A stretch of 64,000 nucleotides of DNA from Spiroplasma chinense (lineage in GTDB: Bacteria; Bacillota_I; Bacilli_A; Mycoplasmatales; Mycoplasmataceae): contig NZ_CP043026.1 in assembly GCF_008086545.1 (NCBI RefSeq), positions 558,001-622,000 on the forward strand, in the 5' to 3' direction. Position 1 is the first letter of the stretch; each line of letters begins with the position of its first letter. Shown here piece by piece: positions 39,372 through 42,539 of this stretch. Position numbers and translations under genes: made by a program. The notes beneath the pieces were generated by a model. The model saw only the letters and a program-made list of their open reading frames with translations. It was not told where the DNA came from and made no database searches.

Positions 39372-39450
39372 TTGTTTTTTTATCCGTATTGTGCAAGAAA
39401 AACCACTATTTAATATATGTTATAATAATATAAGTTTTGAGGTGAAAAAT

Positions 39451-40647
39451 ATGTTTCAAAAGAATGATTCAAAGTTAATTACATCAGATGTAAAATTGAT
39501 AAATGAACAATTAAAAACTGTTGAACTTGATAAATCATTTAAAAGATTTATTGATAGAAACATATTTTTTATTAAAAAAGAACTTAAAAATTTAGCTGTT
39601 ATTAAAAAAACAGGAAGTTATGCAATAGATTGTGTTTATAATTTTGACAAAGAACCAAAAATAGATCTATTGGCTATAAAATATGTAAATAAAGGTATGT
39701 ATTCAGTTTATGAAGAAGAAATTGAAACAAAAGATCACTTTACAGATTGTTGAATTTGTGAAATAAATGAAGAAATTTATAAAAAACTTAAATCAAAGTA
39801 TGAAGTTGTAGAAGAAATTAAAGTTAATTGAAATTCAAAGAAATATAAAATTTATCCTGATTCAAAAGAGACGGTTGAACACAGAGATTCAATTAAAATA
39901 GACTTTTATAAAGATGATAAAATTGGTTTTTCTATCGTTATTAGAACTGGATTAACTCACGCAGATTATCCACCAATTTTATGTTTTAAAAATACTTACG
40001 AAACAACAAATGCAGTAGAATTTGTAAAAACTTACTGAACTTTAAATAAATTAACAATAAGAAAACTTGAAATACTATTTTTCTATATCAGACTTAATTT
40101 TAGAAGAGGTTTTAGTAATGAACAACGCTTAATGATGAAAATAATGGTAATGAGTGATTTACAATATCAATTAACAAAGAATAATATATTTCAAGAATGA
40201 TTAACTCACTCTTTCAAATATTTATTTCCCAATCTTAAGGTAATTGATAGTTTATTTGAATCTAAAAATATTTATTATAAAAAACAAAAATTGTTTGAAA
40301 AATTATATAAATCATTTAGATTGAAAAATCTAAATTGGGTATTTCACAATACTTATTTAAGTACAAAAGATTTTCTGGATAAATACTTGCCTTTATGTAA
40401 AGAATGAGTAGCTGAAAAGAAATATTTAAATGAACCTATGTATTTTTGATATGATACAAATCCATATTTAAAAAATACATCTGGAAGCTCAAATTACACT
40501 ATGAAAAAACAGGCAAAAAAATATGATGATTTAGAAATGTCTATTCATTCAAAAAATGTTTATCCAAGTGATAATGATATTGGTGTATTTTTGGTATTTT
40601 TAAGTTTTTATCAATTTAAAATTCAAAATAACAAAGAGGAGGAATAG
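39451..40647 (+). CDS. Unknown protein A with degenerate nucleotidyltransferase-like motif
   Basis: A 398-aa protein, ATG 39451 after GAGGTG. No signal or TM. After an N-terminal helix comes KKTGSYAIDCVYN...KIDLLAIKYV, with Gly55-Ser56 and Asp72: the spacing of a pol-beta/CD-NTase GS...D motif but without the second Asp of DxD. The rest is helical and aromatic-rich. Its stop codon (TAG 40645-40647) follows the GAGGAGG that serves the next gene, so A and B are made together. Protein B has the same Gly-to-Asp spacing. Function unknown; the NTase link is inference. Confidence 0.75.
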
Positions 40648-40648
40648 T

Positions 40649-41983
40649 ATGTCAAAGATTAACATGATTAATAATTTTGTAATAGCTGTGAATAAAAATA
40701 TTCCTCTAGATAGCAAAATTAATGAATCTATTAAAGAAACTTATGAAAAGTTTAAACAAATATTAAAAGATTCTGAATATTCAATCAAAAAACTTGGAGA
40801 TTTTAAATATAAAAGTTTTTACAGTAAATCTAAAGTGATTAATCTTGATTTAGCAATTGTTAAGTATTTTCCAATAGCTGGTTTTAAACACCAAAAATTT
40901 AGTGAAGATATTTTAGAACTTTTTAAACAAATGCCTATAAAATATAAAATCAAAAAATATCCTAATTACATTTCTGTTTATTGAAGTGAAAAAGGAATTG
41001 AGTATAATTTTAGATTTATTTTAATGGTAAGAAAATTAGAGCAAGGTTTTGAAATAGATTATGTTAATAGAAATGGAATAGTGCAAGATGATTGAGCACT
41101 TCAAGTAACAGAAGCTTTTTGTACTGCCAATAAAATAAGTGGGGGTACTTTGTTTAAAGTAAAAAGAGTTTTAAATTATATTTTAAAAGATGAATTTTCA
41201 TATACTTATAATTTAGACTACAGTTTACTTTCATGATTCTATGAATATTTTTCAAGAAGTTTAAACAGTTTTATAGATCAAAAATATAATATTGAGAAAA
41301 AAGAGTTACAAGTTGAGAATTTTTCTAAAATAAAAAACTTGAAGTTATGATTCTCAAAACATGTAAATATTAATAATTTATATTTCTTTATTTTTTCAAA
41401 ACTTCAAAGTATAAATACATATTATTACTCAGAAATAAGTTTTGAAAATTATGAGATTTTTGCAGATATTTCAAGATATTCTTTAAATACTAATTCAAAT
41501 TTTGCATTACCTTCAAGTTTTTTTAAAGATATAAGAATATTTGATTTACAAAATTTTGATGACTTAACTTTTATTCAGACTAATTGCGGAAATGAATTTG
41601 GTTATTCTAAAATAGCTTGAGATAAAGCAAGAAACGAAGATAAAAGATACTTTGTAAGTCCTTGTATAGTTACAGGAATTTCAAATTTTGCAATGTTTAG
41701 AAAATGATTTACAAAATTAAGCGAAGAACTTTATTCAAAATTATCAACCGGTTTAAAAGAAGAGATTAAGTCTACAAAACAAAGAGAAGCTATGGAAGAG
41801 TTAAATATGTTAGCTCATAATTGACTATCAAGTTACATATCAAAAACAAGATATTTAAAACCTTATTTTGATGCTAAATATCCATTTGCAGGAAATAGTG
41901 ATTTTGAAACTATTTTAAAAATGATAACAACAACCTTGGACAAAATTGATGAACAAAGTTGAATAATGGAAAATGATAATTAA
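40649..41983 (+). CDS. Unknown protein B, probable distant relative of protein A
   Basis: A 444-aa protein, ATG 40649, one base after the stop of protein A. N-terminal helices are followed by KKLGDFKYKSFYS...INLDLAIVKYF: Gly50 and Asp67 show the same 17-residue spacing and the same hydrophobic strand (LDLAIVKYF versus IDLLAIKYV) as protein A. The Ser and second Asp of an active nucleotidyltransferase are missing. The C-terminal two thirds are helical and Tyr/Phe/Asn-rich. Eight or more TGA codons are Trp. Terminator follows. Function unknown. Confidence 0.75.
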
Positions 41984-41984
41984 A

Positions 41985-42010
41985 AAAACAGTTCAATTTG
42001 AACTGTTTTT
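41985..42010. terminator. Bidirectional terminator between convergent genes
   Basis: AAAACAGTTCA / TGAACTGTTTT stem, ATT loop; overlaps the stop of the minus gene. Confidence 0.85.
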
Positions 42011-42539
42011 ATCATTTTTCTTCATCCACAACTTTGTTTTTCAAGATTTCAGTACGTTTTTTAACATAATCTTTTTCAACTTTACCAATGTGGTGGTAAA
42101 GGTCACGACTGGCTTTAATACGTAATTTTTTTAACTCTTCATCACAGAAAACTCATGTTAACCAAACTATGTGAAAGTGTCTTAAATATTTTAATTCTCT
42201 TTCATCATACATTTCATAACTTAATGATTGTGCTTCTTTTTGAGCAAAATCTACTCATTTTTGTGGATCAATATTTTGGTCGTAGGCTTCTTTTGCAAGT
42301 TCTTGGTAACTCAAAGCTTTTTTAACAATTATATCCTCTAATGATTGAAGTGTATTTGCAATTTCAGTAACGATTGCTTGGTCAAATTCATCATAAGAGT
42401 TAAATTGGTGTTTTGAAAGATAAAACATTTTAACACTCAAGTTACTTACTTGGTTTCCACCACTACCTAGATGTTCTCTCTCTGAGATAATTTTAAATTC
42501 GTTTTCAATTTCCTTATAAAAATCTGATTTAATACGCAT
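42009..42539 (-). CDS. Helical cytosolic protein, unknown
   Basis: A 176-aa protein, ATG 42539 after AGAGGTG. Two or three TGA codons are Trp. All-helical and charged, with no signal or TM and a Lys-rich C-terminus. Directly upstream of its ribosome site, its leader has a 16-A run (T16 on the plus strand). No family recognised. Confidence 0.72.

Follow-up and report, generated by a model that had tools for sequence, protein, structure and literature searches.

We propose, with about an even chance of being right, that the adjoining genes A and B encode a non-catalytic and probably heteromeric pseudo-nucleotidyltransferase (pseudo-NTase) unit, which serves a vertically inherited core function and not defence. 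The analysis gives a new identity to a core gene pair that had no annotation, corrects the motif register and adds a candidate zinc site. All positions refer to the window, the whole stretch of 64,000 nucleotides that was analysed, which spans 558001-622000 of its contig; the survey covers 60 genomes of the family.

The A and B genes

Both reading frames are exact under genetic code 4 (TGA read as Trp), with TGA codons required six times in A and eight times in B, and only fragments of either gene appear under table 11. The two ORFs are one base apart, so that A (398 residues) and B (444 residues) indeed come from abutting genes, as the earlier note had it. The unit sits between rsmE and the convergent gene C (Table 1), on a genome that is a single contig of 1.37 Mb; its neighbours in the window, by ORF reading, are rsmE, C, truB, ribF and rpsO. 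The promoter assigned to the unit is absent from the consensus promoter scan, which demands a -35 hexamer.

Table 1. Features of the A-B locus, in window coordinates.
Feature	Position	Strand	Basis or remark
Extended -10 promoter TGtTATAAT of the A-B unit	39418-39426	+	by eye from the sequence
Ribosome-binding site GAGGTG of the A-B unit	39439-39444	+	by eye from the sequence
Protein A, 398 aa, putative pseudo-NTase paralogue with candidate zinc site	39451-40647	+	code 4 ORF, intact
A motif G55-S56 ... K70-I71-D72-L73-L74-A75	39613-39675	+	GS and second acid D72 kept; first acid lost (K70)
A H96-F-T-D-C100-W-I-C103, first part of candidate zinc site	39736-39759	+	22/22 outside g9
A C178, fourth residue of candidate zinc site	39982-39984	+	residue tally
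Ribosome-binding site of B, within the 3' end of A	40636-40642	+	read from the sequence
Protein B, 444 aa, putative pseudo-NTase	40649-41983	+	code 4 ORF, intact
B predicted NTase-fold core, residues 20-130	40706-41038	+	AlphaFold2 pLDDT mostly 60-79
B motif G50-D51 ... N65-L66-D67 at the G[GS]x13[DE]h[DE] position	40796-40849	+	profile register, residue tally
B R122, at or beside the place of the third catalytic acid	41012-41014	+	Arg in 32/36
Intrinsic terminator, bidirectional, between B and convergent gene C	41984-42010	.	-13.2 kcal/mol, z -5.0
Gene C, 176 aa, no family	42009-42539	-	adjoins B in many genomes; linked by association alone

A and B are paralogues

Profiles were built from 25 aligned A sequences and 36 aligned B sequences. 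Compared with each other, they align residues 12-209 of A with residues 5-171 of B (score 55.9, E 1.6e-6, probability 90), far above 60 column-shuffled controls (maximum 20.8), the reversed B profile (18.8) and profiles of unrelated genes (at most 23.2). The stretches KKTGSYAIDCVYNFDKEPKIDLLAIKYV of A and KKLGDFKYKSFYSKSKVINLDLAIVKYF of B lie ungapped within this alignment, and the A profile also matches the N-terminus of B from another genome (E 0.001); direct comparison of the A and B sequences gives only a weak match (E 0.09 for the best BLASTP piece). A and B are therefore not unrelated but paralogues, a homology that is well supported, and the common register that had been claimed for their Gly/Asp strand is real. 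The Gly followed by an Asp 17 residues on, which had also been pointed out, is present in both proteins (G55/D72 in A, G50/D67 in B). As evidence by itself, this Gly-x16-Asp spacing was rejected: each protein holds two such pairs, against 0.4 and 0.6 expected.

The N-terminus of B is predicted to have an NTase fold

B was modelled with AlphaFold2 from a four-row alignment (B and three relatives from S. phoeniceum and S. poulsonii). The model is alpha-beta in its N-terminal part and credible around residues 20-130 only (Table 1; overall mean pLDDT 42). Foldseek comparison of this model with the PDB gave nine matches at E <=0.001, and all 50 matches listed are NTases. The best is an archaeal class I CCA-adding enzyme (2dvi_A, E 6.7e-5), to which no sequence match was found, and further matches among those listed include CdnB, OAS1, NF90-NF45 (4atb), TUTases and poly(A) polymerases; a VIA-align comparison with CdnG reached Z 11.7 over residues 11-134. 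The archaeal CCA-adding enzyme is an active tRNA polymerase in which all catalytic acids are present.

PF18144 was used to fetch 15 CD-NTase candidates, and the B profile matches the profile of these over 152 columns (E 2e-6, probability 89.5, score 53.5), extending from the core into the helical domain as far as its first helix. By comparison, 50 shuffles scored at most 24.2 and profiles of unrelated Spiroplasma genes at most 19.2. The pol-beta NTase fold predicted for the N-terminus of B is thus well supported. For A, the single-sequence model is unusable (pLDDT 32) and its own match to the CD-NTase profile falls short of significance (score 23.2, where shuffles reach 22.9), so A is counted as NTase-like through B only. 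The pol-beta/CD-NTase-type ancestry put forward in the earlier note accordingly stands by fold and profile for B, and for A it would follow from homology to B.

Family searches gave no counterpart to these matches. Scanned against Pfam at E 5, A and B had zero matches, SMODS (PF18144) and DZF included, and neither of these two families was found in the Pfam scan of their relatives; A and B, and in part C, also had no significant match in NCBIfam, PADLOC or PHROGs, nor in sequence searches against the PDB. This absence, together with a B model that is confident in its N-terminus only, would suit lineage-specific proteins of other origin that merely have an alpha-beta arrangement in common with NTases. 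We give that reading hardly any weight, as the fold search and the independent profile comparison agree with each other and bring both GS and DxD into the expected register. Weak Pfam matches of single B members (HetR_C, HU and others) were taken as chance. Apart from A and B, a locus of the same genus (L179, G046:C1:694257-694538) has a short, weak SMODS (CD-NTase) match.

Catalytic positions are lost in both proteins

The match between the B and CD-NTase profiles fixes the register, G50-D51 of B falling on G-S and N65-L66-D67 on D-h-D. The Asp shared by A and B does belong to the motif of the GS...DxD-like pocket that had been proposed, as the second acid of DxD and not the first. Active-site states were tallied over 25 A and 36 B. 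GS is kept in A (G55 in 23/25, S56 in 21/25), as is the second acid (Asp or Glu at position 72 in 24/25); the first acid is absent in 24/25, position 70 being N, K, V, S, I, T or E and never Asp. Among the residues listed for A at 158-166, where the third acid is expected, each column holds an acid in one sequence at most. B retains the Gly (G50 in 32/36) and, as the earlier note had stated, not the GS that A keeps, since position 51 is Asp or Glu in 36/36. Position 67 is likewise acidic in all 36, and position 65 is Asn in 20 (this genome too), Glu in 11 and Asp in five, Glu-Leu-Glu being the state of the g8 members. At position 122 there are 32 Arg, three Tyr and one Asn; the register of the third acid is uncertain by one residue here, and both choices are non-acidic.

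The full active-enzyme motif, that is G[GS] with [DE]h[DE] and a third acid, was found in neither A nor B. Both proteins look catalytically dead to judge from these residues, and the pseudo-enzyme pair suggested from the start is the best reading because catalytic positions are gone in both. B might still be an enzyme, alone or activated by A as an allosteric subunit, if the acids at 51, 65 and 67 held the metal. The first and last of these are invariably acidic and the middle one is in 16/36, and since the DxD position still reads DLD or ELE in some B, B may bind metal. An active B is nevertheless unlikely in our estimation: position 65 is most often Asn, an acid replaces the Ser of the GS motif, the third-acid place carries Arg, Tyr or Asn, and alanine at any one of the three acids of cGAS gives an inactive protein (PMC4897736).

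Loss of Ser56 from A coincides, genome by genome, with loss of Arg122 from B (L022-L024 of genus g9, with Tyr, and L025 of g5, with Asn), a hint, from two lineages only, of a coupled change.

A candidate zinc site in A

His96, Cys100, Cys103 and Cys178 of A are all present in the 22 sequences from outside genus g9, and several A have no Cys besides those of this candidate site. The three g9 members are without all four residues, and GS is also lost there; confinement of the loss to one clade implies one or few events. From this pattern, a structural zinc probably stabilises A.

A and B are conserved, vertically inherited genes

A was found in 26 and B in 39 of the 60 family genomes, with identical counts from a profile search. 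Both occur in single copy in 20/20 genomes of the genus, and neither was found in genera g2, g3, g7, g10, g11 and g12. B stands without A in 14/14 genomes of g8 and hence does not depend on A everywhere; the sole g6 genome has A at a contig end. Wherever both are held (25/25 genomes) they are adjacent and codirectional, and among the intact loci measured the relatives' ORFs range from overlapping to 16 nt apart. Tight coupling is not universal, as about 290 nt separate A from B in one genome (G004). C, found in 35/60 genomes by single-sequence search, has nearly the distribution of B, and in most of the g8 loci that were examined a profile of C locates it beside B. The B of S. phoeniceum P40 and that of S. 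poulsonii come after fhs and not rsmE, still near rbfA and adjacent to C.

When 395 genomes of the class were searched by profile, B matches outside the family stayed at chance level (best E 0.002 per genome). Scans of viral contigs turned up no relative, and a scan of genome contigs returned three B only, from S. phoeniceum and S. poulsonii; a search of the Spiroplasma literature found no related work. Within the genus, identity is 36-65% for A and B and 76-91% for C. In close pairs, dN/dS of A and B is 0.08-0.24 (rsmE, 0.12-0.30), and the distances of A and of B track those of rsmE (r 0.88 and 0.89). Altogether, A and B are under purifying selection, and the pair is chromosomal and vertically inherited.

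These properties make defence unlikely. The earlier note had raised a possible defence role, and A-B as a divergent defence or signalling system, a CBASS-like sensor or a toxin-antitoxin of the HEPN/MNT kind, would be in keeping with the CD-NTase-like fold of B and the two-gene layout. The suggestion is unsupported, and we think such a system very improbable: the pair is single-copy throughout the genus, with low dN/dS and rsmE-like distances, PADLOC, Pfam and NCBIfam are without a match, no effector gene adjoins A-B in this window as it would in CBASS, and a CBASS synthase needs intact catalysis. A HEPN reading of C was dropped, its RDLYHH stretch being unconserved in relatives; C has no HEPN family match, and among 21 B there was one chance-level match to HEPN_Swt1.

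A role in the cytoskeleton of Spiroplasma or in the machinery of its helical cells was also weighed. B is confined to genera with 5-9 MreB-family matches per genome and absent from the MreB-poor genera g2, g3, g7, g11 and g12, counts that suggest a helical-cell link. The correlation is weak, since the absence from MreB-poor genera may be one event, and g10 holds 4-6 MreB-family matches yet no B. Such a role is improbable as the explanation of A and B, although it can be compatible with a pseudo-NTase unit.

Several loci depart from the common arrangement. G025 and G042 have broken, split copies of B (L017; G025:C1:944354-945671), and in the B of G030 (L033 1498-3018, minus strand) a charged insertion, about 60 residues long, follows the core. 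The gap between B and C elsewhere (L131-L134, L137) is an insertion hot spot for transposase-like, lipoprotein, PTS and ABC-transporter-like genes.

A proposed pseudo-NTase heteromer and its known relatives

As we picture the pseudo-NTase unit, A and B would each consist of a pol-beta/CD-NTase-OAS-like core followed by helical domains and be encoded as a two-gene unit, after the loss of metal-binding acids on which nucleotidyl transfer depends. They would act as non-catalytic partners in a heteromer, with A stabilised by its putative structural zinc, and this heteromer could use the former substrate cleft and its helical domains to bind nucleic acid, a nucleotide or another protein. A-B would then be a chromosomal core function of this Spiroplasma lineage. 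The dimer and the nature of its ligand are guesses. To our knowledge, scaffold or sensor pseudo-NTases are known mainly from animals. If the proposal is true, a CD-NTase/OAS-like fold can turn into a housekeeping, non-catalytic unit in bacteria, here in a wall-less bacterium of reduced genome with a conserved tandem pair, and two unannotated core Spiroplasma genes gain a testable biochemical identity.

CD-NTases (SMODS, PF18144: CdnB, CdnD, CdnG, DncV) have in common with B the NTase core, with G[GS]...[DE]h[DE] in register, and the beginning of the helical domain. Unlike them, A-B is without the catalytic acids and a Pfam match, is a core chromosomal gene and comes with a tandem paralogue. 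The DZF domains of NF45-NF90 form a heterodimer of homologous pseudo-NTases (PMC11952958) and would resemble A-B as two homologous NTase-fold proteins with catalytic residues lost. They differ in being eukaryotic (from animals), NF90 has dsRNA-binding domains, A has a candidate zinc site and the A-B dimer is putative. We tentatively consider it possible that A-B is in principle a bacterial, lineage-specific counterpart of NF45-NF90, an obligate heterodimer of pseudo-NTases of which one has a zinc site, with RNA or another ligand and a core function; the comparison concerns how A-B may work, not family membership.

The NTase core of B is also common to cGAS, MAB21L1, OAS1 and OASL, which are metazoan and not two-gene units. 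MAB21L1 showed no NTase activity (PMC4897736), OASL is devoid of such activity (PMC4446440), and cGAS has a zinc thumb (PMC4897736). The candidate ligands of A (HxxxCxxC plus C178) differ in order and place from those of the cGAS group.
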